Shown piece after piece: positions 1 to 24,252 of a stretch of 54,555 bases of DNA. Made by a program: the position numbers and the translations under genes. How positions within the stretch are numbered: the stretch's first letter is position 1; every line of letters starts with the position of its first letter. The notes under the pieces are model-generated. The model saw only the letters and a list, made by a program, of their open reading frames with translations, did no database searches and was not told where the DNA came from. This DNA is from Hysterium pulicare CBS 123377 (taxonomy: Eukaryota > Ascomycota > Dothideomycetes > Hysteriales > Hysteriaceae): positions 1 through 54,555 of the forward strand of contig AJFK01000914.1 in NCBI GenBank assembly GCA_000467715.1. The letters are read 5' to 3'.

Positions 1-40
1 ACCCCCCCTACCACCCCTGCCTCCCCTACCACCCCTGGCC
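1..40. repeat. Low-complexity CCCCTACCACC repeat at left edge
   Basis: Short C-rich tandem units (CCCCTACCACCCCTGCCT and variants) encode the RGG tail of the flanking minus-strand gene. The window begins inside the repeat, so this may be an assembly break. Confidence 0.6.
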
Positions 41-651
41 CTTCCCCTAGCCGGCAAGACAGTTGGATCCATTCGGACTAGGTGCAGGTCTACGTTGGTA
101 TTTAGGTGGATAGCGTACGCGAACCATTTGTTGCGTGTCGGGTCACTATCCATAGCCTGGCGGATATATTCGTACGCCACCTGTCTGCCGAAAAAGTTCC
201 AGAGGAGGGCCTGGATTCCGTTGCAGATTCTCGTAGCCTCCGCCTCGTAGACGATGCGTTGGGCGCGGATGGCGTTGTTGATGCCGCCCTGCAAATTGTT
301 AGCATATGCTATTCATTCATGGGCAAGGATTTTACTTACGTAGGTCGAGGCAACGACGAGGGGGTGGACAGCCGTGCTGTTGAGGCTGTTGGTTGTCATC
401 GCGTCCACTAAGGAGATTAGCATTGAGTTGAGCTAAGATAAGGCATTCTTACCAGGACTAGCTGCCAATATGGGGCCATATACGTGGACCCAGTGGGCGA
501 TGCCTTGGGCAGTTGTGACGCCGGGGTGCTGGGCGACAAAGGCAATGAGCGCGAGATAGTCTTCGTTCCAGCGTTGCTGGTTAGTCGTGGAGAGAGGCGC
601 GGGGTATTGAGGGGGGGCAACGGCGGTGGGGACGACATTGAGGTTGTTCAT
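1..651 (-). CDS. Partial three-exon gene with RGG-repeat tail, unknown function
   Basis: Starts at ATG 651. Exons are 651..453, 407..340 and 288..1, with introns of 45 nt (GTAAGA..CTTAG) and 51 nt (GTAAGT..TTGCAG). The spliced frame stays open for 185 codons and runs off the left edge. The N-terminus is Pro/Ala/Thr-rich (MNNLNVVPTAV...). A middle stretch of about 70 residues is rich in aromatic and helical residues (LLWNFFGRQVAYEYIRQAM). The visible end is ARGRARGG followed by repeated RGG, a signature of RNA-binding or condensate-forming tails. I do not recognise the family. The gene sits beside repeats, so an element-encoded RNA-binding (gag-like) protein is one possibility, but no reverse transcriptase or zinc knuckle is in view. 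The splice sites and the uninterrupted joined frame make a real gene likely; its function is unknown. Confidence 0.6.
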
Positions 652-700
652 CTTTGCGATTTGAGGTCGAGTGCTCTCGCGAATTCTGAGTAGTTACGTT

Positions 701-1170
701 GACGAGTCGAGGGATGGGTGCGGTGCGGGCTTCTTGAGCAGTGGCACTGTCACCTAGTGAACGTTGCTGGTAGACCTTGCCGCTAGGAATCTTGATTGGA
801 GGCGGGAAAGAGAGTGGTGCACTGCAACGAAATCCTTGTTGGTGACGAGGTATGGTGATGAGTCGAGGGTTGACCGCCGTAAAACTGGTAGGAAATTCGG
901 TTTGAAGAGAGAGATAGATGGATGTGGACAGCAAAGAGTCTGTTGTTGGCGTTGTTGTGGTATTGCGAGGGTGAGAGCGAGGCAGAAACGTTTCGAGTCG
1001 AGGGTTGAGCGCCGTAGAAGTTGCTTTTTCTGTCAGGGAGCGGACTTCCAGGTAGATGTTGTTGGTAGCAAAGTCACTCGATGAGAGAAATAGATGGATG
1101 TGGTCAGAAACGAGACTGTGTTCGCGGTGTTGTGGTGTTGCGAGGGAGAGGACGCGGCAGAAAAGTTTGA
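701..1170. repeat. Diverged direct repeat, about 135-177 bp period
   Basis: The segment GAGTCGAGGGTTGACCGCCGTA near 860 recurs near 995 as GAGTCGAGGGTTGAGCGCCGTA, and a shorter copy (GACGAGTCGAGGGATGG) lies at 701. The segment at about 907-993 (agatagatggatgtgg..., then ttgtggtattgcgaggg, then gcagaaacgttt) recurs at about 1084-1168 with roughly 80-85 percent identity by eye. The copies differ by an internal indel of about 40 bp, which gives two different offsets. The repeat lies directly upstream (5') of the minus-strand RGG gene, so it could be a duplicated promoter or leader, or an LTR-like remnant. No terminal TG..CA or target-site duplication was found. Confidence 0.6.
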
Positions 1171-3259
1171 CAGAAAAGGCGGCGCGACTCTGTAAACAGG
1201 ACCAATGACGTAGGAGTATCACGTTGGCAAATGGGGCAATTAATGTGGAGTGATATGAGAAAGGTCCCCAGCCAATGGATCATCACTTTGCAACGGCGAC
1301 TAGTTCAATGGAAAGCTCAACAACGAAGCAAATTTGTGACTCTGGGTCCATTGAGACTTGTTGTTATTGGAATCTTGAATGAAGAAAACATGCCTCCTTA
1401 CAATGCTCCTGTTGAACTCCCTGAACACTCCGTCACCTTGAAGCCCGGGCTAGGTTCCTCCTCCCTGACGAGAAGACCTCCTAGCCTCGCCCCACCCTGT
1501 TTACACGCCATTGTTGTGGAGCTCTCTGACTCAGACTGGGTTTTCTGAAGACGCTGATAGCCTCAATGTCGCCGGCTGGGCCTCTTATGCCAGTTAGCAA
1601 GAACCTGTCAGAGGAAATGTCGTCAGAGTGCACTTAGGGCTTTGTCGATAGCCCCTTGGGTCTCTTCCACAAGCATCTCTAAAGCTTCTTCTATCAGTGC
1701 ATTGTGATGTGGTATAGTTCTTCGTCAATGATCTCGGTATTGATGGACTGCGGTGGCTCTTGTGGTTCGGCTGGTGCTGGGGCAAGAGCCTGTGCGTCAC
1801 CATTCACTTGAGAAGAGACACGACCATCATTGGTAGCAGCTTAAATGACAGTGGTAGCAGCGGCATTATCCTCAGCGGTCTACAAAGTGGAGCAAGCTAT
1901 CGCACTCGCCATGGGATACCAGCATCAAAAGTGCCAGTAGAGTTCGGACCACTACCATACAGGGCCTGGGCATTGGCTGCCGAGCATTAGAGACTGTACT
2001 GGGGGGCGGTAGTGGTCTGGAGAGCTGCCTCCTAACATCCTTTCCAGCGTATTGCGGCGCAGAATATCGGCGTCCGTAAGTGAATGGCGAGCTTAGATGG
2101 GGTAGTTGAGTTAAGGCGCCAGCTGCCATCTGCAGGGACCCGCGCGGTACCAGCTAGTTGACTGCTGGCTATCCCTAGCCGCGGCGGCGGTGTCCGCCCC
2201 ACTCTAGCGGGCCCTTCACTAACGTGCTACAACTACCCTTTACGCCAACCTTGGCACTACAGCTATCGGATCGCGAATGTCTACTCCACTTTACAGCAAC
2301 GACCTCAGCTATTATCGGTCACTACAATCCTCGACAGCAAGGATCATCCGCGCAACCGCCTCTTCTTACACGGCGGATTCCTGTATACAGCACCCCTCTA
2401 CAGGGGTTCTCTACAAAACGACTTCTCTCTACTGAGGTCAGTCCACTTTAATAGCCCTAGCTGCTATTAATAGTCCATTACTATCCCTTTGGTTCTATTA
2501 TTTAGGATGGTTAGTGAGCTAATAGATGGCGTCAATATCTTTAACCTCCATTACTGAAGTATCCGGCGCTCTACGACTCCCTTGGATTACGCGCGTTGAC
2601 GTTGAGTTTGTCCGCCCGCCCTCTCCCGGCTGCATCGCGTATCTTTGAAAGAAGCCGGACGATAACAGTCGGGAATCTGCGCGCTACAGCAAGAAGCCAT
2701 TTGCCGCTATAATGACAAATAGACTCGGTTGACAGGAGCATTTGGTGTCCCCGGAAACCCTCGAGGTGTACTACACCGACGACGAGTTGCGCGAGGCGAT
2801 TGATAGCGTCCTATTTGAGCGCAGGACGACGGATGCAGCACTGCGCCCGGAGGTGTCGGACGGGGTGGGGAGTTTGATAAGTAACAACATCCGAACCAAC
2901 GGCCAGAGGTAGGCTTAGGCCTTGGCTTATACGCAAGAGACAGAAATGGAATGGCTGACAAGATAAGGTGACGGCTTGAAGCAGGATCTCAGTGAACCCT
3001 AGATTGGAAAGCAAAGCTAGGCTCAGCTGAGACTCAAGAATGGAAGGAGGCAAAGTGATGATTGATTAGAGCGTCATGACTCAGGAGGGTGTCGATCCCC
3101 GAGGTCAGTATAGAGCTCGACCGTATTGAGAGGAAACGAAAGGAAACTGACGGCGGACTTTGCGCCCTCATACATACGGTGACGAGCCTAATGAAAGGAA
3201 GTTTAACAACAGGCACAGGACTACCTACGAGGCCTCAGCCAGGGAACAACGAATACGCG
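1171..3259. other. Gene-poor stretch, no supported gene
   Basis: Only short overlapping open frames of 60-105 codons occur, on both strands, mostly without ATG or recognisable domains. No tRNA, rRNA or transposase was recognised. A frame of about 75 codons at 2224..2451 (+) and one of 85 at 1872..2129 (-) are the longest; neither looks like a known protein. Confidence 0.5.
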
Positions 3260-4394
3260 CAACACCATGGGTATACGGCAATTGCAATTGAAGGACACCA
3301 ATACGCCATCAACGTGCGGTCGAGTTGCTAGAATATAGAAGGAAAGGTAAATACTCTGTACGAGGGAGAAGAGATTGGCTGACCATATGGCCTTCAGAGC
3401 AATAGGAGAAACCTCCCTACCTAGAGCCCGCTCACGACCAAACCTGCGACCCAAGCGTGCAAATAACAACGTTCAGGAGAGAAGACAAGGAAGGTTGTGA
3501 GCAATGAGCAAAAACATGAGCAAAAACGGCTAAGAGAAGGGAGCACTCGTCACACCATAGGCGCTCGGCATGCAGCAATCACAGCGAGGTCTTCTAGAGG
3601 ACCAGATCACGTAGGAGAAATGGGCTACCATGATGCCATTGGCATGATCGCGTAGAGATGAAGGAGAGAACAATGAGGTACTCGGCATACCATTGGTACT
3701 CGGCGTGCGGAAAACAACAGAAGAGGTCTTCAAACTTCTCGTCAGGCCATTAGCCTTCGGCGTGCGTCATGGGATTGGACAACGAAGGAATGCAGAGCTT
3801 TGGAAGGACCGACAACGTTCAATCAACTGGCATAGCAGGGAATATCTCGTCACACAATAGGTGCTCGGCATGCGCATCATTCAAGAGGAAAGATACCCTT
3901 CCTACATACCAATCACCTCCGCATACCCCCTGCCTCGGTCACTTTCCTCGAGCACTGACATCACGATGTACCTCTAGGGCAACCGGAATGAACGACAAGC
4001 GAAGCCTGATGATACAAGACGAAAGAAATAAGACTGCATAATCTGAGGATAACGATACTCGAAACACATCAATGCTTAGCGAAGGAAAATGTTACGAATC
4101 CCCGTTGGCGGCCGGCAAGCAACGAAAAGGCAAAGAGACGAAGCAGAAAGCTCGAGCGACAATCATGACAAATGAACACAGGAGTTACGAACACGAGACA
4201 CCATGGGCATCCGAAACGTTGCTGCCATGTAGGCAGATATTAGAAACACTATGGATCGAAGGCAAATCACCGGTGGAAGGAATACGTGGAGGTCCATATG
4301 TCTCCGAAGAAAGATCAAGACACGTTTGACTGGATGTATTGATAAACGCTTGAAAGGGGTATAAAGCAGTAGAGGTAGACGTTCAAGATAAATA

Positions 4395-4760
4395 GTCAGA
4401 GGCCCATTGGGCTTGACACTGAAAGTAGTGTAGATGTCCAAAACAATATGATCGAAATGAAGTTCAACGAAATAGATACCAACAGACTACTGCATCCTTA
4501 TAGACAGACTTGCCGTGCTACACGTCGGCTATTACTACGATGCGAAATATAATGTTGAATCTCTTATGACTATACTAGCATAGTAAAGGAAATATCTCAG
4601 GTCCCATCGGGCCTGGGCTCGGATATTCAAGACAGCAATTAAAGCAACATGCTTAAGTTTTGGAAGAATTACTTCAGTACCCATTGGGACTGGAATCTGC
4701 AATAATTGAGAGTGACTCTGAAAACAGGCCAAATACACATCAGAACCCATGGGGCCTGGC
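4395..4760 (+). repeat. Second hairpin family: CAGN-N-CCCATNGGG-N-CTG
   Basis: Copies at 4598 (CAGGTCCCATCGGGCCTG), 4675 (CAGTACCCATTGGGACTG) and 4741 (CAGAACCCATGGGGCCTG), plus one at 5287, share a CCC-ATN-GGG core, one unpaired position and an outer CAG/CTG stem. A related pair at 4395 and 6125 share a GGCCCAT core followed by GGCTTGAC. Spacing between the first three is 77 and 66 bp. Confidence 0.6.
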
Positions 4761-4935
4761 ACTGCTGGCAGGCCTCAGTGCCCAATTTTAGCTCATATGC
4801 AAAAGGATAAAACATCTATCTACGCCACGTAGAGCCCTCTACTAGCTCTATTAGCCCGTTAGCGCATCATTTTAGCCCTCTGTTAAGTATGAGCCAAAGA
4901 ATGATAATATCTAAATAGGAAAAAAAAAATATAAC

Positions 4936-5000
4936 AAAAAAAGTTTCTGATGTGACTCGAACAGTCATGCTCCTATTTAAACACATGAACACGTTAGCTT
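4936..5000 (-). ncRNA. Possible tRNA-derived (pol III) remnant
   Basis: On the minus strand an A-box-like AAGCTAACGTG (5000..4990) is followed 25-30 nt later by GACTGTTCGAGTC (4966..4954). That sequence has a 4-bp stem around GTTCGAG and matches a B box / T-arm. A run of T7 (4943..4936) follows, as expected of a pol III terminator. No acceptor stem can be closed and no credible anticodon arm is seen, so this is not a working tRNA. It may be a SINE-like fragment or chance. Confidence 0.25.
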
Positions 5001-6810
5001 ATTTCCCGAATGGTTGAAACGAAGACGATGCGATGCGAGTGAGTGAAGGGCCCCCCGAAGGTTAAAGGAAACTGTCAATAAAATTATATATATAGGTGAT
5101 CAGGACGCCTTCGCAAATGAAGTTTGAGTGGTGTGGAAGAACCAAGACTTTAGCGTCTCGCGTTCCAATGACCACCTGAAGAGTGGACAGTCATGCAATG
5201 CTACAAGGGAGTTGTGCATGACGTATTGGACAATTTCACGCATCGAGGCTTACCTAGGTACGAGCATGAACCCATCATCTATACATCAGCGCCCATAGGG
5301 CCTGGACTTAAACACGAATACGCCTCACGTAACGAATTAACGTTAACAAAGAGGCGGAATAAGCTATACGAAACTATCACACCAGGCTAATGGAGCCGTT
5401 CCAAGAAGAGTGAAAACAACTAGAACTCACCTGGTACTATTGTTTACCTCGCTTATTCTCTACTGGTTATTAAAGAAGTACGTCCCGGTCTATAATGCGC
5501 ATTCTTCGAGAGGGAGATTCATGATAGACACCTGAACAATGAACTTATACAGGTACACGAGAGGCCATGGGCCTTCGGACTGCTGACGAGAAACAAGATC
5601 ACCATAGGTGTTTGGCTACAAAATGAGGCAGAAAGGAGTCGATGCGGTCATGGTATTTGGAAATTAGAGCGACATGAGAGAGGATTACTTTGGGATCATC
5701 GATTCCCGGCAGATGATGCACAAACAGGAGGACTCCGTCAGTTGCCATTGGCGCCGGTGACCCAACGAAATGAAAGTACTCGAAACACCATCGATGTCCG
5801 ACAAGATCTGATACTCGTGCACCATAGATGCCGGGAAATAGTTGCAGTAAAAGGTATCGATGCGCCAATGGCACATGGTAGATCGAGAGACGCACAAAGA
5901 GAATCGACTTTATGATCATGCAAAGCTTGAACAACTGAGGTAACCGACGGCATGCGGAGATCGGACGGAGAAATACGACTAAGATCTCGTATCGAATTAA
6001 GACGAGCAATAAAATTCTTCCAGAACGGGCACCCCCGCGAGGCCGCCGTCGCTTCCCTTTCCGTCGACACTCGTAAAAAAAGCGGCAAGAAGCAGGACGG
6101 AAGGAGAGGGTTCAAAGATCAATAGTCATAGGCCCATGAGGCTTGACGTCTAGCTCAAAAGATGCATGGGAGAGAAAGGAAAGATGATATCTCGCAGCAC
6201 CATGCGTGTAAGAAGTGGACTCTCCGATGAAAAGGACTACTCGGCATGCCATAGGCACTCGGCGTGCATAAAGACCACGAAGGTATATCCCCATAGAACT
6301 TAGTGAGATTCAAGGATGCTGATAAGACTCCGAAAGCAACAAGATCATACCGCTCTGAACCAATCTTGAATTGAGAGGGCTTCACGACAAATCAACGTGA
6401 AGGGTCAAGGGATAAAACACCCAGAATGTGAATGATGGACTTGGTAGATATAAATGACATCGGAGAATAATGAAAGCTGACAGGATATTGCAGAAAAGCT
6501 AGATACGGGATGACCATGAAATATGATCTTTCAGGCATGGAGGAACGCAGCACACCATTCGAGATGAAGTTGGCCTGGCTATGACTTACCTTATGTCTAC
6601 CTCCCCTATGCTAACATATTATGCTGCCATACCTTATACTAACCTACCTTACGCTAATCGTCCTTTAGATTATGAAACATACTTGAACTTACTTAGAGAG
6701 TGAGCATATCTAACATGCGAGAAGTTACGGACGCGGCTACGAATGACAAGTGGATTACGTCTTTAAGGAAAGCATCGAATGACGGAGTTATCAGTGCAAA
6801 GAAACAATTC

Positions 6811-7190
6811 AGCGAGACGCCATGAGCGTTCGGCATTCAACAAGTTCACAAAGCAGATAGAGTACTCGACACATCATAGATGCTCGGCATGCTAGAGAAT
6901 CATGGGAATCCTCATCGTGCCATAGATACTCGGCGTACAACAATCATAGATACGCAAGAGACGTCACGACATACCATTGGTACTCGGCGTGCTAATGCAA
7001 CATGGAGATTCTCGTCATGCCATAGGCACTCGGCGTGCAGAAGTGACACGAACGTTCTCGTCATGCCATGGGCACTCGGCGTGCAACGATCACAAGCAGG
7101 AGCTTTCTCGGCATACCATGGGTACTCGGCGTGCTAGAGGTATAAGAGCAATCGGAGTACTCGTCGTGCCATGGGCACTCGGCGTGCAGA
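6811..7190 (+). repeat. Tandem hairpin array 1, about 50-bp period, eight units
   Basis: Eight palindromic cores are centred near 6823, 6877, 6923, 6977, 7023, 7069, 7119 and 7172 (steps of 46-54 bp). Most are preceded by CTCGTC or CTCGGC and followed by CTCGGCGTGC. Arms include CATC/GATG, TACC/GGTA (twice), TGCC/GGCA (twice) and GTGCC/GGCAC. Between units lie non-conserved spacers of about 15-20 bp. It resembles a CRISPR array superficially but lies in a fungal nuclear genome and the conserved part itself varies. Confidence 0.75.
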
Positions 7191-7551
7191 AAGCAAGAGA
7201 TAACGATAGGAAGGCGGAGAAAGACGATATATCATATTCCAGAGGAGAACAGCTCAAAGAAGTTCAGGTGGAAAGCAAAAGATACACCCTACCTTTCTTA
7301 CCTGCGCCAGGATGATCTCCGTTCCATGGCACCTGCCTTCAACTGATAGTACTTTCTCCTCATCGACTATCGACAAGCGATCTTTCGTCTTCCAAGAAGC
7401 ACACCACAAACATCGACGACTGAATAAAGAGTCTAGAATGCAGATAGGATGAAGATTGTGCATCAGACTGGCTTGAAGATTGACGCGCGTAAAAAGACAT
7501 CGGCAGAGTTCAGCTTGGGAGAAGTCCAAGGAGATATGATTCACAGAGCAA

Positions 7552-7927
7552 GAGTACTCGACGTGCCATAGGCGTTCGGCGTGCATAATCAATACTTGGG
7601 AGAGAAAAAAGAGGAAGCAATGAGTACTCTACGCACCATGGGTGCTCGGCGTGCATAATCAACTCTGCGGAGATGAAACCGGAGAAGCGGCGGAGGAGTA
7701 CTCGGCACGCCATAGGCGCTCGGCGTTCGAAATCAACACTCTGGGGAGGAAAAGGCAAAAGAAGAGTACTCCACAGATAGGTGCTCGGCATGCATAATCA
7801 ACACCCGAAAGACAAAAACGAGGAAGAAAGGAGTACTCGGCACACCATAGGTGCTCGGCGTGCATAATCAAGGAGTAAGAAAGAGGGAAAAGGAGAGTAC
7901 TCGTCACACCATAGGTGTTTGGCGTGC
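7552..7927 (+). repeat. Tandem hairpin array 2, about 69-bp period, six units
   Basis: Units start with GAGTACT at 7552, 7622, 7696, 7764, 7831 and 7895 (steps 70, 74, 68, 67, 64). Each holds GAGTACTCG, a covarying hairpin (for example GCACC-ATG-GGTGC at 7632, CGCC-ATA-GGCG at 7708, CACC-ATA-GGTG at 7843) and CTCGGCGTGC; most continue with ATAATCAA. A purine-rich, unconserved spacer of about 30 nt follows. Unit 4 is damaged (CACAGATAGGTG). Confidence 0.8.
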
Positions 7928-7966
7928 AGCAGCATGAATGACCAGCAGTTATTGTTGAAGTATGCA

Positions 7967-8130
7967 TGACTGCTCAGCCGCAATCGGCGGGCCAGACTGA
8001 TTGAAACGAATGAATGCTCTACCACCATTGGTGGGCCATTTGAGAGAGAATGACTGCTCAACTACCATAGGTAGGCCAAGGAAGAGAGATTGACTGCTCA
8101 ACTACCATAGGTAGGCCAAGGAAGAGAAGG
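7967..8130 (+). repeat. Tandem hairpin array 3, 40-44-bp period, four units
   Basis: Units begin with TGACTGCTCA or its variant at 7967, 8011, 8051 and 8091 and end in GGGCCA or TAGGCCA. The hairpins are GCCG-CAAT-CGGC, CCACC-ATT-GGTGG and twice CTACC-ATA-GGTAG. The last two units are nearly identical over about 37 bp. This is the same architectural theme as arrays 1 and 2 but with a different conserved flank (TGACTGCTCA in place of GTACTCG; GCC in place of CTCGGCGTGC). Confidence 0.75.
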
Positions 8131-9500
8131 AAGCTGGCATTCGAGGTCTCACGCATCAAAAGAGCCGCGGCTCTTGAAGAAAGGAGACTTGGATGACGGA
8201 AGGAAAAGTGACAAGGGAGGAGGATTGAAGCAGAAAGCTAAAGATGGACTAATGAATGATGAAAGAAAAAGGATATATGGAAACCCACATCGCCGGCTCA
8301 TATGGTCTTTACTTACTTTGAAACAGCTCATCCCTTCCCCGAGCTTCGACGTCGTCTTTCAGGGGACAAAATAGCTGGCAAAGTTGAAAGCCCCCGGTTC
8401 AAACGAAAGATTTTGTTATGCTGCAAATCCAAAGGTCGGCCTTGGAAGGGTTCGGACATTTGCGGAAGCCATGGACGATCCGGAGCGAAAGGTTTTGTAA
8501 CTTGTCATAGTACCGCAGGGCTGCGCTGAAGCAGGTGGGATATTCTGATTCCCATCCCTTAGCCAGACTCGTTGAATCCGCAATTCTGAGGATGATGCTC
8601 CCTAATGGGGTGGCATGGCTCTGGACATATCCTTAGGCAAATGAATTCAGGGGCCAATTCAATATGGCTTATGAGACAATGCGGAACATCTCAAGACTAT
8701 TGCTGGTTCGCCGTATAACGATGACAAATTTGCCAAATCAAGATGTGTCACTGGACTATGAGAGGGCAGTCATATACACCACAAAGTTGCAGTATGGTAC
8801 CGGTTGGGAGTGTCAAAAGGCCAGCGGGTGCAAAGGCTCATCCGTAGCCGGAATTTTCACACAAGTGGAGGCAGAGTGGCATCTCCGAAAGCTGAAAAAA
8901 AGCAGTTTGCTGGATGATGAAAGAGGTTGGCGATTCAAACAGCATTGATCATCCTCCCCGTAGATAGATGAAGGATGAAGATCCGAGGAGAAGTCAATGG
9001 CAAAAGGAGGGCATAGCCTTTGAGGCAAAAAGCGACCGAGAGGGCTGGAAATGCCTCATGACAGCGCGGAAGTCAGCTTTTGTGTGGCACTCATTGCCGT
9101 TGATCTGATGCTCGAATGTCTTTCAATTGTGATATCACGTAGAGCCTCCTGAGAGCGATCTGTCAAATGCATGGGCACGATTGTTGAGCGCTCAACTGCG
9201 AGCATCCTCGGGGCCTCCAGAAGTCGAGATCAACCTTTGATGTGCTGATACTACGTGCTGCTTGCAGAGACTGATGCATACCGGAAAAGTTTATTTCCGA
9301 TTCTGGCCATTTCTGGCAAGTTTTCGCGGGTTTGTTGTTTTTGAGCCATGCCAGTGACCGGACCTTTGTCTACTGAAGTTTGTTCGCACCAAATCTATTC
9401 CGATGCCCTGGACAAACAACGTCTCCAAATCGTGCGAGGCCTCTTTCAGGAGACGCTTGTTGCGAAGTGGCCCGTGCTCGCTATCATGAGGTTGCTCGTT
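8131..9500. other. Gene-poor stretch with one small ATG frame
   Basis: The only ATG-initiated frame of note is 8664..8948 (+), 94 codons, with a few cysteines (GTGWECQKASGCKG) and a basic C-terminal half. No family is recognised and codon usage is not distinctive. The rest shows no repeat or RNA gene that I can identify. Confidence 0.3.
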
Positions 9501-10835
9501 TGGTGTTGAGCTTCGTCCAACTCCCCACGATCTTCAACGACAACACAACGACCTCTGCAAGTCCATACTCTTGCTCGAAACACAGGAGGTAAGAGCAATA
9601 CGATCGCGAGAGGCTGTACGAGAACGTCGCCAGCATCATGCGGCCCAGAAGGACAAAGCCAGAACCGTTTGCACTGCTGGAAGGTCGACCAGCTGGGCAC
9701 ACTTGCAGCTTGAGAAGCACCACACACCAACACCAATGGCTTGCGAGGATGCTTAGAACTTCACGAGACGATACGATGCACCTTCCCTCCATCAGACACT
9801 GTAGAAGAGTCGACAAGATGCTTGAGAGCCACCATGGCGATGGCGGAGCGGGCTGCACCTCCGCTATCTTCACTCACCACGCGACGACTGCGATCGCCGC
9901 AACCAAGGGAGGTAAAGGCATCACATCGTCCTGGCTTGCGAGCCGCAATAGAGATCGACGGAGTGTAGCTTCTAGATGATACCCTTGCTTGGTCGCACCC
10001 GGAGAGCGAAATCGCTCTTTCAGCGACGAGGACACCGCCGGCTTCCTGACTCGCTATGCCACGATGGTAGACAGCAGACTCAAGGCCCGATTGCCTATCG
10101 CATTGTCTTGCTTCGCCGACCGGGATACGGATCATCGGCGTGGCCAACATGAGGTGCCAACAAAGGATCGTAAACATGTGTCATCCGAATAACGCGCGGC
10201 GAACCAGACACGCACCCGCTAACACACGACGCAAACGACACCGAAACCAACGCGACTCATGCAGAGACTGTGCTTCGATAGTAAAGGGTCGTCGAGGAGT
10301 CTTGCGAGGAAGAGAGAATGGCCATATCAACTGTTACCAGGCCCGCCTCGCGTCTGAGCGCCAGGGCTCAGTGACAACTATGCAAAGGCAGACCCCCACA
10401 GACGTGCGAATCATCATTCAAAATTCGGGTAGATCGGAGGCGTAGGAGGAAGACAAATCCATGAAGCCATGGGTTCCCGTAGAGGCAGCGGACAAGAGTC
10501 TCCCTTGACGCAAGTTCGCTCCAAACTACAGTAGAAGGCGATGCTCTACCAGGGCCGGATCGAAGTCCATGGCGCATGACGATGAACCGACAGCTTTGAT
10601 GCAGCGAATCATCAGGACGGGCACCAGGCAGAGGGCCAAAGTCCTTCAGTACAAACGTGTACGGGCCCAGTTGAGATAGAACAATGATACCGGAGGGGCA
10701 TTTGCCCAGTCGAAAGGGCGTAAGGATCCAGTGACAGGCAAGTTCGAGAGAGCCGGCATACGCAAGCTCTCCGTCAAACATCCTGGCAATGCATATACTG
10801 ACATGCAAAGTAGTTGATATACTGCGTGAAGCCAA
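9501..10835 (+). pseudogene. Probable decayed coding region, family unknown
   Basis: Several stop-free stretches of 60-110 codons in different plus-strand frames look protein-like but do not join. About 9503..9756 is rich in Glu/Arg/Gln (LLLETQEVRAIRSREAVRER), suggesting a helical segment. About 9741..9968 (VEESTRCLRATMAMAERAAP) is in another frame. The minus strand also has long open frames here (139 codons ending at 9761 and 156 codons ending at 10368). I cannot tell which strand was coding. No domain is recognised; relics of a broken gene are the most economical reading. Confidence 0.25.
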
Positions 10836-11651
10836 GTGACGGCATTTCGACCACGACCAACATCGGAGGAACTCAATAATCAGTCTCCTGGAAGTCGAAG
10901 AAAAAACGACAAGCGCTCAAGTCGAACCGGCGCGTATAACATTCTATCGGAAGCCAATGTTAAAGTTGTTAGAACGGTCCAGGAGGAGCATTCAGTTTCA
11001 TCTGCGGGAGACCTTCCAATAGAGGAGAGGCACGATATCCTGGAAGCAAAGGCTGCTGACTCCATGCGGCATAGCCAATCCCTACCCACCTTCGATGTCA
11101 CCGTCACTCGATCGAATCTTTCCGAGTGGGAAGCAGAAGCCCATTGTTATCTCGAACTGAGCACGAGCAGCTCGGCAGTAACAATCATACCGTGTGCAAA
11201 CTCAACCGAGATGATCAAGTCTGAGGAATGATCAAATGGAGCGGCCCAACATATGCTCTCAGGCTTTCCCGGGAATGTTGACGACCAAAACTGGCCCGTT
11301 CGCTCGTGCGAGACCGATCCCACGGAGAACAGACAGACAACAACACCAAGACCAAGACCAAAACGGGAAGAAGATGGCTCGGCCAATTCACAAAGGAGGC
11401 TGATAAGAGTCGGACATAAGAGTCGGACAGCTGGTGGCGTTGGAAGCAAGAGGCATCTCGCGGAGGTAGAGTCTGACTGCAACACTCTTTTCCTTTCCAA
11501 CATCGGGCATGAGAGTGCTCTCGATTCGACTCCAAGCATCGTCCCGAAGATTCAAGAAGTGCCGGTCGGAGAACAGACTTGTGCAATAGAAGCTGTGAGT
11601 AAAACGAGAAAAGAAGCTTGGAATACCCCTCGATACAGGCCAGAAAGCTGA
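10836..11651 (+). pseudogene. 272-codon open frame interrupted by a single TGA
   Basis: The frame is open from 10836 to the stop ending at 11651 except for one TGA at 11229-11231. Both halves look like a disordered, polar fungal protein: the first with VRTVQEEHSVSSAGDLPIEE, the second with ENRQTTTPRPRPKREEDG and a basic linker. There is no ATG near 10836, so it may be an internal exon. An alternative intron (GTAACA at 11178 to CTCTCAG at 11262, 85 nt) would remove the TGA but shifts the frame. Readthrough, intron or inactivating mutation cannot be separated by eye. It may be the N-terminal part of the FHA-containing relic immediately downstream. Confidence 0.35.
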
Positions 11652-11770
11652 TACGAGTTTGAAGTCTGATTTGTCTCCATGGATGTACCATAGCTTCAAG
11701 TCAACAACATACTTGGAGTTCGGCCAGCATCGTTGCTAGTCCCAAGCTATATGTAAGGCATGATTGGGAA

Positions 11771-11788
11771 GAGGTGATCGATCACCTC
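11771..11788. promoter_or_regulatory. Perfect 18-bp palindrome GAGGTGATCGATCACCTC
   Basis: Two 9-bp half-sites, GAGGTGATC and GATCACCTC, abut without a spacer. A symmetrical protein-binding site is possible; an untranslated hairpin or chance within decayed sequence is also possible. Confidence 0.3.
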
Positions 11789-11989
11789 TGATCAATTTCC
11801 ATGCACACATACTTCGTCGACTGCGGTCCTGAATCATCCTTGAGGCATGAAGAGGCCTGATGAACCATGAGGCGTAGGGAGATCTGAGACTCCACGTGAT
11901 CAGGGGACCCTGCATCGGTCGGAGATCGACAGTCCAGATAAGAAAATGCAGTCATGATTGAGCGGATATGCTGACAGAGGAGCAGGTGA

Positions 11990-13094
11990 TCTTCACGTCG
12001 AAGATTCCAATTTGCCTCACAACAGGGAGAGACGCATCCCATTGGAGACGTAAGCGTGCTGCTAAATGCTCCTGCAGATTTTGCCGATGTTTGGGAGATG
12101 TACAGTCCTAAGAGATGGGAGACTGGCAGAGTCCGATGTTCTACTTTTCCAAAGCAAAAGCAAGGAAAAAGTGTTCGTTGTCGACGATGATCCGGAGGTA
12201 TCCTTTGCCCAGTTCCGACTTGCAGTCTGATGACTAACGAAACTCGGCAGGATATCAGAAGACGATTCAAATGTCATAAAACAGACAAAGATCCACCTAG
12301 TCTGTCGACAATGCTGACCTTCTGAGCCCGCAGTTCTCCATCCTCGGTCGGAAGTATGTACTCATGCCGAAGGCGAAGAATGTTCAGCTGGAGTCTTCCA
12401 AGCCCGACCACTGTTCGATAAAATACCAGGTATGAATCCAGTCTGATGATATGTATAGGATACTATAACACGACACATCAGTGCGATCTTAGGCGGTTAA
12501 GAATGGTCGAATATGATGCTCAGCTATGGATGGTTCCTAGCACTTACAATTAGTAAGATAGCTTCGAATGTTTGAGAAGAGGTGCTTACCATAGTGTTCA
12601 GGTCCAATAGTCACGTCTTCGGATCGAACGATAGATGCTGCCGTCGTCCGTGGTTGAGGACAAGAAGGCAGCATACCCCAAGGTGTATATCTCCAGGAGA
12701 GCACGACAATAGTTTTTGGGGTACTCGGCTGCCTCATATTCAAAAGCCAGTCCACTTGACAATAAATTGCAATTGTATGCAAGCAGAGGCAAAGATACTC
12801 GGTCCACGCTGTTTGGAAAGGTCTGTCATGAACGACTGTCAAATAGGTCAGTACAAAATGTCAACAAGATGACAAGGTCTCAGATACTTACCGTTTTCCT
12901 TAGTTGATCTTGGAGACGTTGTTCATGTATGCACAATACAGGACCCGAGTCCAATCAATCCTAGGTCATGGGCATCAGACATCGATGTGCATTGCACCAT
13001 AGCCGTCAAGGTGGAGTGCTTCCAACTATTCCGCAGCATCACAAGGCTTCCTCGAGCATCCGCAAAAGGAGCGCATATGTGTACACGGACATGA
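11990..13094 (+). pseudogene. Broken multi-exon gene with FHA-like domain
   Basis: Exon-like pieces in order: 11990..12190 (FASQQGETHPIGDVSVLLNA, then DFADVWEMYSPKRWETG); an overlapping frame ending at 12197 in FVVDDDPE; an intron 12198..12250 with GTATCC, CTAAC branch point and CAG; exon 12334..12429 after CCGCAG, beginning FSILGRKYVLMP and ending DHCSIKYQ before GTATGA; exon 12482..12553 (CDLRRLRMVEYDAQLWMVPS); exon about 12903..13094 (VDLGDVVHV...). The order GR, then H-x-x-I, then L..STY, then L..GDVV is the layout of a forkhead-associated phosphothreonine-binding domain. Stops, a frame change near 12140 and a poor splice site at 12318 argue that the gene is no longer intact. Three in-frame stops lie just upstream (about 11940-11989) within otherwise protein-like sequence. 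Confidence 0.4.
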
Positions 13095-13308
13095 AAGAGA
13101 TGTAGGGATGAATGTAACAAGGTCGACGATGCTGGGTGTTGTTAGCATGTGCCATCGGAGCTGTCAACCCGCCTTATAGACTTACCGTTTCCTATCCTCG
13201 TAGCTTTCTACGATCATTTCACTCTTAACATTTGTCAGTTGCACTGCCGACAGCCATGGTTGTTGCTTCCTCTCCGTTGGCCTAGGGTGTGAAGTGAGGT
13301 AGGTGTGA

Positions 13309-13819
13309 CCTTATTTGACCTCACTCGTCGCCGAGGATTTGCAGCGACTCGAAAAAGACTATTTCCCTTCGCCCCTTGTGTTCCACTCTGAGCACAAGAT
13401 GTACAGAAGACCCGAGGTCGTTCATTCGTCAGGTTGGAAGTCTCAAGCCGAAAGGCTGTTGTCGTTCCAACAGGAGGTCTCGAGAGGCAGGAGCAACAGA
13501 GAGGTAAGCCATCTCAGGAAAACCAAGCACAGCCATCTCATCGATTGCACCTATGCAAGAGTCGCTTGTGATGATGGGCTGTGTGGTTGTGGAGGTGAGG
13601 TTGAAGGTCTGAGGTGGTTCGCGCGGAGGAGCGAAAGTTGACGACGAGGACCTCAGCGCAGCAGACATCGCCTTGCTGGAACTCTTGCTGTCGTCAGCGG
13701 GTAAGAAGAGCCAAAAGAACACCTGGAAGATGTCCCGGACCCAACTCTCAGCCAGCAGAGAGTCGTTGAGGCGGGCAGCGAAAGAGCTCACTGCGGAAGC
13801 CGAAACCCCCTATCTCTGA
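13309..13819 (+). CDS. Candidate 3' coding exons, unknown protein (possibly same broken gene)
   Basis: Two protein-like blocks lie on the plus strand. The first, 13309..about 13503, contains LQRLEKDYFPSPLVFHSEHK and ends in RGRSNRE before a GTAAGC donor. The second, 13613..13819, contains DDEDLSAADIALLELLLSSA, then a Lys/Arg-rich helix and the stop TGA at 13817. An intron between them is plausible but its acceptor is uncertain. The opposite strand has a 121-codon open frame (13791..13429) without an ATG, which I regard as a shadow. The block may be the C-terminus of the FHA-like relic or an independent small gene. Confidence 0.35.
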
Positions 13820-14144
13820 TTCTCAGCGGCAGGGGCTGCCTGGGTGTCAGTAACTCGCCGAGGAGGTTAATCTGGAGAGTATCAATGCTTTTGCAACAAG
13901 CAATTCACACGCTACGACTTTTCGTTGTGGTGATGGTCGTGGTGCGGCCGGTGATGATTCATTTTTGGTGTTGTGGAAATACCTAGGTAGAGTGGTTTAG
14001 GAGTTTCTTTGGCGCCCCCCATTGAAAGCCAGGAAGCACGGCCTCAATCGACTGCAACGCCGTCAGATGGGCAACCTCTTCGTTCTTGCCCTCTAGTTCT
14101 CTGTATTGGCTGCAAAGACCTGGGCAAGGCAGCTGCTGCCAGTC

Positions 14145-17091
14145 ATGTCCACCAGAGATCTTGTTATCCTCTCCTCCTCCCCTCCAATGCCCTGGATGGG
14201 GACGGCCTTAGCGACTCGAGAATGCACACCCCCGAGCGGCCAACAACGCGTCGGCATGTCCTCTTTGTCGCTCGGGCTACCGTCTCCGCGAGGCCTGATA
14301 AAGCCAAAGCCAAGCGGCGCGTTGCGAAGTGGCTCACGAGCTGCACATGTACCTCAGGATGCAATTGCAGGGTTTGCCACTGCTGCAAGTCTGGTGCGGA
14401 GCAACCAACTGGCTCTCGAAGCCGTGGACCCATTTCTAGATGGGGATCGACAACAACAGATGCAGGACTCGAGTTCTCATGCAGATACTAATGATACAGC
14501 GGCTAAGAAGCCATCCAAGAGAGCTACGAAGCGCTCAACCTCCAAAGACAGCAATCCCGCGGCAAGGAGACCAAAGCAGAGAAAACAGAGGTCAATCACA
14601 CAACCCCCCGACAAAGACCAGACGCCGCTACAGGATGCCGAACCACTTGTAGTTGTACGATCTTCCCACAAAGTCATTTCCACCGCAGCGGAAACCTCGA
14701 ATACCAAGCCAGCAAAGCCGCGAAAGCCAAGGGCGAAGAAGGAGAAGACGGAGGAGACGCAGACAAAGACGAATCGGGGCAAAACTACAAAGCCCCAGAG
14801 TGGTGCTCGCTCTACCAAAGATCTGGGACTTGTAGCATCTGGACAACGGTTAGGGGCAAAGTCTACAGGAGTAGTTTCGTCGCATTTCCAGCACGACGTG
14901 TCGGCAAATGGGGACACTAGGTACAAAGATACCTTCCCGCTATCTGCTGATGGCATTTTGGCGACGGATAGGGTTGAGACTGTAACTAGGGGTGAGGAAG
15001 AGAGTGCGGCGAAAGATGGCAAGCCTCGTGCTTCACGAAGACGGAAGTCGAATGGCATTTCAAAGGCTCCACTAGCTATTGATATCGCTGTTGGGCGGAG
15101 AGTGGACTGGACACCTCCGAAGGATACCAATGTCATACACGTACAGGCGGGTTCTTTGGGCAAGGAGAATCACCCTCCCACAATACAGCAAGAGAAATCT
15201 ACTTTCACGAATTTGCTTGGCAACTTCTCCTATCCACAAACCTCTGAATCGACTTCAGCGGCTGCTTCAAGGCCTACGTCTAGAGATGGAGTGACAAAGC
15301 GGCGAAAAATTGACGTAAGATTATCCAACCTCTTCCACTTGCAATTCGGGTCAATGCTGATGATACTTGCAGCTTGTTGATGTTCCAGGGAAACCGCCAA
15401 CCTCGAGGAATCCTTCGCCGGAGAAGATCAAAGCGCCAAAAAAGAAAGCAAGGACAATCACAGACTTGGTAACGGCTCAATACAACACCAGCGATTCTAA
15501 AGCCGTTCCTGCGCCAGAGGTCAGTGCGTTCTTCGCACCACGTAACGACGCGCAATTAGGTGATGCCCCTCGGCCTTCTAAGAAGAAACCGCCACGAGAA
15601 AAATCACCATCGAAACAAAGCTCGAAAGCAGAAGCGAACAAGAAGTCCAAGGCCAAGACCACATCCAAACCAAAGCTTGTTGCAACGAAGTTACTGTCTC
15701 CGGAATCTGCCGCGCTTCGGTTGAATAAGCAGGACCTTCTCTTTGGCACTTCGAGCCAACTTGCACGCGAAGAGTCTCCGGCTTTGCTCCGGGACCTTCA
15801 AAATGCGATTCGAGAATCGGAGACGGAGGCTGCTATTCTTGAAGAGAGCGCCATAGTATCAAGTGAAACACTGAGCACATCCCGACTCGGTACGAGTTTG
15901 TCAGTCGTCAAAGCAAGTCGAGGTCTGTGGTCGGTAAGTGCACGAGATTCGGAGAACAGTCTCTTGGACAAGGATGAGCTCATCTACGTGCCTGATAAGC
16001 ATCCCCAATCTCATATTGGCTTGCTTGTTGACGGAACTCATGAAGAAAGTTTCGCCGACATTGACGACTTTAAAGAGCCTCAGGACTCTCTGGTAGTTAC
16101 GACCGAATCCGCTTCAACTAGACATGAAGAACCAGAGAGCCCTGTTTCGCTGCCTCGGCAACTTCCTTCAGATTCGCTGTCATTTCAGGATATAGACCAG
16201 TTCGAGTATGAAGAGCCGCAAATGCAGACCATAAGCGATGTCAGTTTTCAAGACATAGATGATTTCGTAACCAATCTTCCTCCAGCCAAAACTTCAAGTC
16301 GAGATCGCATTCAAGCATCCAGCTCAAAGAGACCGCCCAACACTCCCAGCAAAGACGCCCCTCCGAAGAGACGGCGTGGTCGCATGCCCAAGCCCGCCAA
16401 TTCCCAGAATGCACCACCAGTTGTAGGAAGAGCCGATGCGGTAAGAGCACCGAACACGAAAATCACTTCTCTTCGTAAAGCACCGAGTACCCCTGCAAAA
16501 CGTGAGAAGAGATTCACACACATCGATGAGATATCCGACTCAGAAGCTGAGTCACCACTCTCGCCTACCCCACCACGCTTATCTCGCATCAGTGTTCCTA
16601 AGCCACTTGATCTTCGACCAAGTCAAGAACAACCCTTGGAGGGTGGAGATGGCTTTGAAGCACCAATCCGTACCTTCAAGATCAGGCTAAGCGATCTCGC
16701 ATGGGATGGCATGAAGCCTGCCATTTTCGCCGAGGTCACTAAGCGGGTCAAGTCACAACCAAACACCACCGATCTGAGTCGTCCCAGTTGGTACGAGAAG
16801 ATCCTGATGTATGATCCCATCGTGCTTGAAGACTTCACGGCATGGTTGAATGGGAAAGGTGTGAGAGCTTACAAGAAGGCTACTGTGAAGCAAGTCAAGG
16901 AGGATATGAAGGCGCGAAAGGATACGTATGTTCACGATCCTTATGATGGGACAGTGGCGAAGGAAGATATGGTGGCTGTGGTTGAGAAGGAGATTGAGGC
17001 TTGGATGGTGCAGCAGTGGTGTCAAGAGAAAAGCGTGTGTTGTATCTCAAAAGAGAAGATTAAAAGTGGGCCGAGGAGGCAGATGTATTGA
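14145..17091 (+). CDS. SLX4: SLX4, structure-specific endonuclease scaffold subunit
   Basis: Two exons, 14145..15314 and 15373..17091, with a 58-nt intron (GTAAGA..TTGCAG), encode 962 aa. The start MSTRDLVILSSSPP is typical of fungal SLX4. SLX4 binds and activates the GIY-YIG nuclease SLX1 and helps resolve branched DNA during replication and recombination in the nucleus. The first two thirds are disordered and basic (KKPSKR, RAKKEKTEE) with acidic-aromatic repeats SFQDIDQFEYEE and SFQDIDDFV near residues 660-690. An acidic SDSEAE patch lies near 780. The conserved C-terminal SLX1-binding region spans about 825-962, with RPSWYEKILMYDPIVLEDFT, a W-containing amphipathic stretch and EAWMVQQWCQEKSVCC. 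Fungal SLX4 proteins are usually 700-900 aa, so this is slightly long. The assignment is firm. Confidence 0.93.
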
Positions 17092-18351: not shown

Positions 18352-20041
18352 ATGAGTACCATCACCTCAGCACCCGCTCTTCCCTCCAACTTCGCGATCC
18401 CCACAAGCACCACCTCCGCAACCGCCACATGCACGACTGCTGTGCGTGGGAAATATGGCTACGTGCCGCCGGATGCATGTAATGCGAATTGGAACTTCAA
18501 CCCTTCTTTCCAGGCTGCCGTTGCCTTTGCCTTCTTGTTCGGTATTGTGATGTTCGCACATATCTTCCAGAGCGTTTGGTATAAAAAGGTGCGTCGAGTC
18601 CGGGAGCGACGTTGGCGACTGATGGGACCAGCCCAGTATTTTGAGCTAACATTTCACGCAGAGATACGCATGGGTCTTGATCATGGGCGCGGCTTGGGAA
18701 CTTGCTAGTTTCGTCATTCGTGCGTTCGGAACGAGGAATCAGCAGAGCTTGACGCCGGTTATTGTGAGCCAGTTGTTGCTGCTATTAGCTCCGCTATGTG
18801 AGTTCGCGGTTTTTATCCTTCGCGATCACCATCTTCTTTGCAGGCCTACTATCTCTCCTTTCCCGTCCACTTCAGGATCCAAAATCTCCCATTCACATCT
18901 GCTTTCGCATCTCGTACCCATCATCGCACAGCCGATATCCCATTCCCCTCCCTCCCGGCCGTACCCTTCTCGTACAGATCGCATACCTCCTCGATGCCGT
19001 CAGATTTCCTCAATACTAACCGTCCTCCCAGGGATCAACGCATTCGCCTACATGACCCTCGGCCGCCTAGCCAACTACTTCCACCCCTACCAACGCGTCG
19101 GCCGCATCAAAGCCTCCTCAGTAGCAAAATACTTCGTCCTAGCCGACATCGTCTCTTTCCTCGTGCAAGCCACCGGCGGCGTCCTACTCTCGCCCAGCAG
19201 TAGTTCCAGCAAGCAGAAACTCGGGAAGAGTGTTTATATGGCTGGTGTTGGGATACAGGAGGGGTTCATTGTAAGTAATCGTACAGAGTGGGGGATTGGA
19301 TGCGGATGAGGCTAATGCTTGGGGTCGGATTTTAGGTGATATTCACAGCTTGCCTTATTCGATTCCAGATTGAGATGCGGCGACATGAAGCTAGAGGCGA
19401 GGTACGAATGGATAGGACGGGGTGGAGAAAACTAGTCTATGTTCTCTACGCTGTCTTGACTCTTATCTCCGTAAGTTCTGCATGCCCCCTACCCATCACT
19501 ACACCCTTCCCCTAACCTATAACCACACCTCGATACCACGCACAAATTACACGACTAATACTTGTGCGTCCCACAGATCCGCATCATCTACCGCCTAATC
19601 GAATACTCCTCCGGCACCTCCCAATCCAACCCCATCGTCTCCCACGAATGGTACACCTACGCCCTCGACGGCGTCCCCATGTTCCTCGCCATCCTCCTGC
19701 TCAATCTCTTCCACCCAGGCCGCGTTCTCATCGGTCCAGATAGCGAGTTCTCGTCCTCCAAAAATTCCAAAACCCCCAAATCTTCTAGACGCTCTTCGAA
19801 GGGCTCGAGAGTCGAGTATCAAGCTGCGCCTAGCGGTCAGAGACGCAGGAGTCGGAGGAGGAGTAGTGCGAGGAGGAGTGCGGAGAGGGGTGCGGGTGCG
19901 GGTGGGAGGAGGGAGCGTGGAGAGGGGAGGAGGGAGAGGGAGTATGCAACACAGCAGCAGCAGCAGCAGGGAAGTTGGGAGCCGATGAGGGATTTGGATT
20001 ATGATGCTGAGAGGAGGAGGGCGGCTGGAGAGAGGTGGTAG
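18352..20041 (+). CDS. RTA1-like seven-helix membrane protein
   Basis: Five exons: 18352..18588, 18662..18797, 19032..19270, 19336..19470 and 19577..20041, all GT..AG and in phase, giving 403 aa. After a Ser/Thr-rich N-terminus with TCTTAVRGKYGYVPPDACNA come seven predicted membrane helices. Family motifs include AAWELASFVIRAFGTRNQQS, INAFAYMTLGR, ADIVSFLVQATGG and the cytoplasmic-side RIIYRLIEYSSG. RTA1/RSB1-family proteins sit in fungal plasma or internal membranes and are linked to resistance to aminocholesterol and to sphingoid-base export; the substrate here is not known. The C-terminal ~110 residues are unusual: Ser/Arg/Gly-rich with a CAG tract encoding Gln6. Family members commonly have 280-350 aa, so the tail makes this one long. 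A 234-nt second intron is longer than its neighbours. Confidence 0.9.
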
Positions 20042-20770
20042 ACCCGAGGGTCTGAAACGAGAGATCGGAACTGGATCGGAGAAGAGGATGTTATCTTTCA
20101 TGATACGCACCGGGCTGCAGGGGATAAACACGTTGATGGCAGTTTGGGCTTTCCCTTTCAAATCTCCCTAATGTTCTAAAATAGCGAGACTACTTTCGAA
20201 TTGACTTTTAAGGTGGTACCTGATATTGATACTTTTTACGATCCAATATTCCTATCTAGACAACCAGTAACGAGTAAAGTAGCATCGGAGCGTCGGTCTT
20301 AGAATGGCATAAATCGTTCCAAAAGTTGAAGTATCCATCTTCTTTTTCACTCCGGAAACGAAGAAGCTTTGAGGGATTGGAATGTTTCTTAGTGAAACCT
20401 TTCTCGTGAGTTGCACATATGACTTTTCTATCCGATAGAATTTATGCTATATAATTAAGCAGACGGGCCTTCGAGATTTCGTCGTCCTAAGACAAGTCCC
20501 AATGGGTATGGAAGAGATTCATTTGGGGACGATACAAGGCTTGTGAAAAGATTTATGCAATTCATTGTCGACACGCGAATGACGCTCGACGTAGCCAACA
20601 AAACACTAGCCAAGGCCATGGTGTATGGCTACTTGTATATGGATGTAGACAGACTGAGGAGATAATATGCATTCTGCATTGTCAAACGATTATGCCTTCG
20701 TGACTACACTTAAAAGCGCTGCATCTGACCGATAAGGCTCTTCAATATCATCTCAAAGGATCTAAACCAA
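20042..20770. other. Intergenic, convergent 3' ends
   Basis: Lies between the 3' ends of a plus-strand and a minus-strand gene. AT-rich; no ORF, RNA or repeat recognised. Confidence 0.5.
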
Positions 20771-23539: not shown

Positions 23540-24252
23540 CCTGAGTTACCTTGCTCAGCCTGATCCGGTGAGCAGGGTTGAGTGTGAACGTGATCGACTT
23601 CCAAGTTTCCTAGTTTCTGCATAGAAAGAAATAAGGCGATAGTATAGCCTTTTTGACGGAGTATAAAAGACGGCAGTGCGGTGGATGAGAACAAAGTTGA
23701 ATGTGGGATCGATTCATGGTGGAGGTGTCAACGCGCGAGGTTGAAACGAAGATCGATGAGGCAGTGCGCGCTAATCCAGAAGAAGATGACACAGCCTCCC
23801 CATCTTTTAAAAACTGGGCTGAGGCTTAAACCAGCTGGAGGATCAGCGTGACTATGTCTCAAGCGAAGAACGGGCCGTCGGTATTGGTAGTTCAATGATC
23901 GCGGCAAGATTTCCTGTAAAGTAAGTAATACCGCAACCTTGTATCTGAGATTCAACTTCACACGTCCCCGAGTGGGACCTCCAAGTCTCCCAATTTCCCC
24001 AAACTTGGGTCAAAACACCAACTTCTATCAAAACATGGGTAGAAGGATAGTTCTAGGCATGACATACAAGTCAGACGATTCACAGGAGCAGAAATCATCC
24101 AGTTCTAAGTGTGTAGATTTAGTTTTCATATGTTATACATACGATACATAATCCACTTCCCCAAAATACTCCCCCGCCATCTCGCACATTCGTAAATCCC
24201 TTACCCAAACCATGTATACCCACACCAGACTTCCCATTTCTACGGTACTAGC
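23540..24252. other. Intergenic, upstream region of the ULD-ankyrin gene
   Basis: Holds the presumed promoter of the minus-strand gene starting at 23539 and the 3' flank of the permease. No ORF or RNA of note. Confidence 0.5.

Follow-up and report, generated by a model that had tools for sequence, protein, structure and literature searches.

Arrays of covarying hairpins at several loci of Hysterium pulicare, probably formed in a minus-strand RNA

The window analysed here is the whole 54,555-nucleotide stretch of contig AJFK01000914.1 of Hysterium pulicare CBS 123377 (C549 in the genome comparisons below), and it carries an array of short hairpins at 3253-8123, with the minus strand as the RNA sense. 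Elsewhere in the window, an open frame at 1-312 (minus strand) ends in RGG repeats at the contig end; it is without a Pfam match and has a relative, 69% identical, at the start of contig C494. Additionally, a 36-bp tandem repeat at 38923-39094 encodes QDPGMHxVPxQN-like repeats within a 1191-aa frame (37240-40815, minus strand). The gene set of the genome includes Slx4, Ssu72 and an amino-acid permease.

Eight tandem hairpins with exchanged arms had been described at 6811-7190 in a sequence-only reading, and they are present, with core starts at 6820, 6874, 6920, 6974, 7020, 7066, 7116 and 7169 and a spacing between these starts of 46-54 bp. Read on the minus strand, seven of the eight have all five inner pairs formed, either Watson-Crick or G.U. 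The first unit (6808-6838) includes an inner U.G pair and is otherwise paired, the second (6862-6892) has the arms CATC/GATG with all pairs formed, and the third (6908-6938, core 6920), with a single A.C mismatch, is the sole damaged unit of the eight. The arms are TACC/GGTA in the fourth (6962-6992) and seventh (7104-7134), TGCC/GGCA in the fifth (7008-7038) and sixth (7054-7084) and GTGCC/GGCAC in the eighth (7157-7187), and the named arm exchanges are thus real. The features that had been taken as constant are less strict: the flanks are conserved but not fixed, being most divergent in the units with cores at 6820 and 6920, and the core CCATNGG occurs in just five of the eight.

These eight units are only part of a 5-kb array. 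The plus strand of the window carries 43 CCATNGG cores, 27 of them within 3265-8105, besides variant-core units, five of which entered the alignment A1 described below. All 27 units, whose core reads CCNATGG in the RNA sense, form the pair next to the core (pair 1). Beside the eight units lies a block at 7543-7928 (cores 7566, 7636, 7710, 7845 and 7909) with a period of about 70 bp, and at 8008-8127 there is a 40-bp tandem of three units, two with the arms CTACC/GGTAG and one with CCACC/GGTGG. On the other side, a unit at 6237-6267 (core 6249) has the arms TGCC/GGCA, and the stretch 3532-3874 includes units with cores at 3555, 3636 and 3690 and variant units near 3747 and 3855. Sparser units occupy 4189-5835 (cores 4201, 4404, 4604, 4681, 4747, 5293, 5565, 5602 and 5745; variant cores 5788 and 5822), several of them pairing less well than those of the dense blocks. 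All of these units are on the minus strand.

Over the array as a whole the spacing is irregular, and some local copies have the spacer in common as well as the hairpin; the palindrome-targeting mobile element that had been proposed as one origin is without positive evidence. Flanking inverted or long direct repeats of the array were not found in window 1-14000, where the one distant repeat pair consists of 37 nt at 70% (positions 4140 and 8227). By eye, a tRNA-like stretch lies beside a long A/T run at about 4915-5070, perhaps a SINE inside the array; ARAGORN reported no tRNA there.

The array is non-coding, with no open frame running through it. No start-codon frame of at least 150 aa overlaps it, the longest listed stop-to-stop frame has 170 codons, and ten stop-to-stop frames searched against Pfam gave no family above the cut-off. 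In Rfam 15 the window has no match at the gathering score, and its positions 1-12000 have none even with E allowed up to 2; in the loci L018, L019, L055, L057 and L077 the sole hit is an HDV-like ribozyme below threshold, which lies outside the hairpins. Pyrimidines abound on the RNA strand and peak just beside the units, at a fraction of 0.6-0.8.

Related units occur at other loci of the same genome. When the genome was searched with a pattern of flanks and core, at most two mismatches being allowed, 69 matches were obtained vs 7 with the reversed control. The 39 of them with no or one mismatch are confined to five contigs, C549 (the window), C493, C250, C288 and C213. The other 30 have two mismatches, and 13 of these fall on other contigs, little above the control level. 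Four arrays and one solitary unit are found on the five contigs, and counting by core only (CCNATGG in the RNA sense, inside the array stretches) gives at least 105 units over five loci: 27 in the window, 41 on C493, 20 on C250, 16 on C288 and one on C213. These locus and unit numbers are a lower bound since the pattern searches score the best candidates only, and the stretches read were 7.2 kb on C250, 5.8 kb on C288 and 3 kb on C213, where the single unit lies. On C493, 41 of the 55 CCATNGG cores lie in 18456-25068.

A 30-nt stretch of one unit is the same in the window and on C493. Further, a block of about 100 nt is common to C250 (one copy, r3063-3157), C493 (one copy, r5927-6022) and C288 (three copies, r2191-2287, 2374-2470 and 2890-2987; all in RNA-sense coordinates), and these three loci have a common order of hairpins, block, GTGTAAG-type repeats, donor-like motifs and again hairpins. 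The block was not detected in the window, where the best E was 0.81. Otherwise the loci align with one another in hairpin stretches and in little else, the pattern expected if units are more strongly constrained than spacers. Most likely, the loci represent a small RNA family. Their position relative to telomeres was addressed with the pattern (TTAGGG)4, which had no match anywhere in the genome and is hence uninformative on location.

The hairpins are far more frequent in the arrays than composition would predict. Hairpins with four Watson-Crick pairs and an N-A-T loop number 77 in the 19.6 kb of the four arrays vs 4.8 +- 2.3 in dinucleotide shuffles (maximum 13 in 200), and of the 124 four-pair triloop hairpins in the arrays, 77 have the loop AAT, TAT, CAT or GAT. 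On the RNA strand the density of the N-A-T hairpins reaches 3.93 per kb, vs 0.15 per kb on the opposite strand; in 25 other loci of 3 kb each, a non-random sample fetched as weak pattern matches (those outside the arrays among the 30 loci of the weak-match search), it is 0.24 per kb. At the 30 CCATNGG cores that the window contig and C493 carry beyond their arrays, the next bases pair no more than after shuffling.

The claim that the arms change in a compensating manner was assessed with two sets of units, all of them from one genome, so that the conservation described is among the copies within it. Alignment A1 comprises 78 distinct units from the window and C493, 66 chosen by core (68 less two duplicates) and 12 with variant cores. 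The five-pair structure is formed in 94.6% of its cells vs 76.1% after shuffling, with 82 double-change cells vs 22.5, figures that include the 12 variant-core units taken, from 17 paired candidates, because they pair; the five candidates left out include the two with a plus-strand wobble. Structures slid along A1 are paired in 32-51% of cells, none above 51%. The second set consists of the 105 core-only units, chosen irrespective of pairing. Here pair 1 is formed in 102 units vs 47.2 +- 4.5 after shuffling (maximum 64) and pair 2 in 95 vs 59.9 +- 3.4 (maximum 72). Among 103 distinct units (104 less one duplicate), pair 1 occurs as all four Watson-Crick types (G-C 30, A-T 27, T-A 14, C-G 12), and the five-prime arm occurs as 12 dinucleotide types in which both pairs are Watson-Crick.

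Separated from the inner pairs by a short internal loop, the outer pair -5/+6 also covaries, being formed in 76 of the 105 units vs 52.0 +- 4.2 after shuffling (maximum 68), with 48 G-C and 20 C-G; pairs -4/+5 and -6/+7 have no excess over shuffling in the same units. The pairing is a property of the individual unit: the outer pairs are both formed in 90 of 100 cases within the unit vs 48 of 100 with the arm of the next unit, and where neighbouring arms differ (n=73, adjacent units only) the corresponding numbers are 66 and 23.

Shared descent of the copies was taken into account with a tree null, in which the inferred changes of each column were placed at random on a FastTree tree in 300 runs. 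The null reached at most 83 of 103 units paired vs 100 observed for pair 1 and 94 for pair 2, while pair 3 lies inside it (77 of 103 paired, null maximum 80 in 300 runs). The claim of covariation above phylogenetic background thus stands for pairs 1 and 2 and not for pair 3, by a simplified control that is rough, since the short sequences tested, with their stems, were themselves used to build the tree, and that is not R-scape. We conclude with high confidence that the hairpins are a structured RNA kept by selection through double compensating changes.

A mutational process could also yield double changes. Template switching at quasi-palindromes restores perfect DNA palindromes without selection and can change both arms in one step, and in the tree reconstruction both sides of pair 1 did change on one branch 19 times. 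Such a process would not fix the loop, the flanks or the orientation, and the two strands should behave alike under it, yet a clear wobble excess is found only as minus-strand G.U, as set out below; we regard template switching as very unlikely.

The strand of the selected molecule can be read from the imperfect pairs. A pair that is one transition away from Watson-Crick is G.T or A.C depending on the strand, and RNA helices tolerate G.U but not A.C. Read on the minus strand, pair 1 includes 17 G.U and one A.C among the 103 units, and pair 2 eight G.U and four A.C. With composition controlled by shuffling whole arrays, there are 40 hairpins with a single G.U vs 10.5 +- 3.4 and 12 with a single A.C vs 7.2 +- 2.6, and the wobble test on column margins alone gave P = 0.004 for pair 1 vs 0.30 for pair 2. 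Given the tolerance of RNA helices for G.U and not A.C, the selected form is most likely minus-strand RNA, and we conclude that the selected molecule is probably an RNA of this strand and not a DNA dyad. The wobble test led us to abandon both plus-strand RNA and a DNA dyad as readings of the hairpins.

A dyad bound by a homodimer had been among the first proposals, and the core CC-NNN-GG is indeed symmetrical and nearly fixed. However, the half-site bases vary freely, in the 12 dinucleotide types given above, while the pairing stays, the flanks are asymmetrical and the wobbles are asymmetric between the strands. This explanation is disfavoured to the point of being highly improbable.

Thermodynamic folding in a 121-nt context covered 94 of the 105 units, those with four formed pairs beside the loop, and gave a mean predicted stem probability of 0.48 on the RNA strand, 0.39 on the other strand and 0.40 with shuffled flanks. 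The stems are short and their predicted probability is moderate. For some units, folding prefers a longer alternative stem, GCACGCC/GGCGTGC; this stem is possible with a subset of the arm types only, and it was rejected as the common structure. Repeated hairpins on one strand could in principle be a small-RNA precursor. Known Dicer substrates are far longer than stems of about five pairs with a triloop, and we consider a precursor role extremely doubtful.

The spacers between the hairpins have a signal of their own. With the hairpins masked, the top enriched hexamers of the RNA strand are GGTAAG and GGTAGG, and the 5'-splice-site-like motif GGTARG occurs 39 times on this strand vs 5.8 +- 2.2 in dinucleotide shuffles or 8.5 +- 2.9 under an order-2 Markov model. 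The excess is smaller on the other strand (14 vs 6.0 +- 2.3 shuffled), and the 25 background loci have 57 on both strands together vs 44.9 +- 7.3; CAGGTARG occurs six times vs 0.4. The motifs lie mostly away from the hairpins, at a median of 154 nt to the nearest, with two of the 39 within 25 nt, and they fit five to eight of the nine positions of the U1-complementary consensus. Donor-like motifs alternate with hairpin blocks and are in places in tandem, with four in 33 nt at C250. In the window, minus-strand examples are two GGTARG motifs between hairpin blocks at 7288-7302, two at 6585-6648 (6643-6648 and 6585-6590), a GGTAAG at 5249-5254 and a GGTAGG at 3416-3421. The stronger GGTARG signal on the minus strand is further support for that strand, and neither splicing nor U1 binding is proven thereby. 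The earlier suggestion of a transcribed hairpin is accordingly supported as to structure, by the wobble asymmetry, the GGTARG strand bias and the covariation at pairs 1 and 2, with the minus strand as the one that would be transcribed.

The same motifs could be real donors. The transcript would then have several exons and exceptionally long introns, and hairpins within these introns would act in splicing, for instance by bringing splice sites closer together. The strong enrichment of GGTARG and CAGGTARG on the RNA strand and the alternation of donors with hairpin blocks agree with this, and more predicted structure has been described in long introns of Aspergillus, according to passages of PMC2467506. 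The branch-point-like CTRAC, however, is not enriched in the arrays (13 vs 24.9 +- 4.6 with dinucleotide and 19.1 +- 4.1 with order-2 Markov controls; it is low in the background loci too, 205 vs 263.2), acceptor-like motifs are neither clearly enriched nor clearly avoided, the donors occur in tandem, and the array frames tested have no Pfam domain above the cut-off. We view introns as an unlikely setting. An apparent avoidance of splice acceptors, strong vs mononucleotide shuffles, was largely lost with order-2 Markov controls and in the background loci, and was discarded.

A candidate HDV-like ribozyme (C250:11529-11611, that is L055:443-525) precedes the C250 array on the RNA strand, at its 5' side, and the next good hairpin units begin within about 100 nt of it. 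Two Rfam models of HDV type match it below threshold (27.3 of 37 and 20.7 of 44 bits), and it is found by a purpose-built HDV descriptor that gives 0.1 hits per shuffled 54.6-kb strand and that also gave two poorer matches, in L019 (C493) and L022. Folded without pseudoknots, the candidate is not unusually stable (z -1.42). A second copy at C497:4235-4330 (L189:35-130) has U-A in place of C-G in P2, with pairing kept, and no such hairpins were found in the 1.07 kb read after it. Five further, weaker matches to the ribozyme core occur in the genome vs one control match. With Rfam, no HDV-like element was found at the window, C493 or C288, and the candidate is thus seen at one of the four arrays.

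Such a ribozyme would fit a reading of the arrays as internal sequence of a large family of non-autonomous retroelements, propagated through RNA and perhaps freed at the 5' end by ribozyme cleavage. The position of the candidate on the same strand as the C250 hairpins, the double change in P2 of the C497 copy and the common order of elements at three loci are in favour. The rarity of the ribozyme among the arrays, the C497 copy without following hairpins, the scarcity of alignment outside hairpins and block, and the missing flanking repeats in window 1-14000 speak against a retroelement, which we judge improbable.

On balance we favour, by a modest degree, one or more long, pyrimidine-rich, non-coding minus-strand RNAs whose repeated hairpins would be multivalent protein-binding sites; transcription, the binding partner and the scaffold role are all inferred. 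The repeats would be the DNA of such an RNA, and each unit of the transcript would form a hairpin in which two nearly fixed C-G pairs close an N-A-U triloop. Outward of this core, two to three pairs would be free in sequence with pairing kept, with the conserved flanks CCGAG before and CGAGUA after and one further covarying pair past the short internal loop. The loop and flanks are conserved in sequence and the stem only as a stem, and the unit is therefore likely to be a recognition element for an RNA-binding protein; more generally, a protein or an RNA could recognise loop and flanks on the required stem. Repetition of the hairpins suggests multivalent binding, and many copies of one element could make the RNA a scaffold or a sponge for an RNA-binding protein, while the GGTARG motifs may bind U1 snRNP and keep the RNA in the nucleus. 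More tentatively, and with a small chance of being right, the loci could represent a new class of fungal architectural RNA, with multi-kb transcripts in which hairpin blocks alternate with unspliced U1 sites, where U1 would anchor the RNA at chromatin and the hairpins would gather one protein.

The Xist A-repeat and PNCTR offer parallels in working, and we claim membership in neither. The A-repeat of mammalian Xist consists of tandem short hairpins with a conserved loop and U-rich linkers, and structure over sequence is inferred to matter in it (passages of PMC5742192). The H. pulicare arrays have tandem hairpins, a conserved loop and pyrimidine-rich linkers in common with it, and differ, as far as these passages describe Xist, in number (7.5-8.5 copies vs about a hundred here over several loci), in the loop (an AUCG tetraloop vs an NAU triloop here) and in pairing, since several Xist models pair different repeats while arms here pair within the unit more than with the adjacent one. 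Human PNCTR is a pyrimidine-rich lncRNA with hundreds of pyrimidine-tract protein sites that sequesters PTBP1 (parts of PMC6224606). It resembles the arrays as a long pyrimidine-rich RNA with many repeated sites, protein binding here being putative, and its sites are linear short tandem repeats, the word "hairpin" being absent from the main text of PMC6224606, whereas the conserved feature here is a hairpin.

In the passages of PMC12354759 on Arabidopsis MUSHER, a U1-tethered chromatin lncRNA has four putative U1 sites and no splicing detected; those passages mention no hairpin array, and the resemblance lies solely in the excess of 5' splice-site motifs, U1 binding and nuclear retention here being putative. 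The predicted intronic hairpins of Aspergillus, denser in long introns, are bulgy, about 60 bp long and in introns averaging 183 bp (passages of PMC2467506), in contrast to arrays of one short unit here. No description of fungal or hairpin repeats of this form was found in the literature covered, which included few subscription papers, and a term search of the main text of the 2025 fungal lncRNA review PMC12566771 found no word beginning hairpin, stem-loop or palindrom.

With about a hundred copies, a free stem and conserved loop and flanks, the arrays represent a natural mutagenesis experiment on strand, pairs and bases. Should the RNA prove to be transcribed and bound, fungi would have a scaffold RNA of repeated hairpins comparable to the Xist A-repeat, and pull-down would be a way to its protein partner.

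The hairpin pattern was also searched in other collections. It occurs in 11 viral stretches with one match each, taken as chance, and in 93 prokaryotic stretches, with one match each in the 80 stretches listed, likewise taken as chance. Five contigs of the Rhodospirillales genome URHD0017 (L126, L129, L131, L142 and L162) have one match each among the matches listed, all near the end of a sequence piece, and these are probably an unrelated bacterial repeat.

Two further features of the H. pulicare loci were noted. On visual inspection, the C250 array contains short tandem repeats of the TCGTAGTATCCTG and CGTAGTTTCCTTACCGT types at about 14640-15070. A second apparently structured element (GGGAGGGCCC...GGAGGGGYYCAC..., GGAGGGG...) is found in two copies on C250 (about 15124-15214 and 15360-15446), on C288 (r1240) and on C497 (L189 about 325-400); a search with one C250 copy matched only itself. 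The C250 copies of this element fold with a closing helix CCCAAC/GUUGGG or CCCAAU/AUUGGG.
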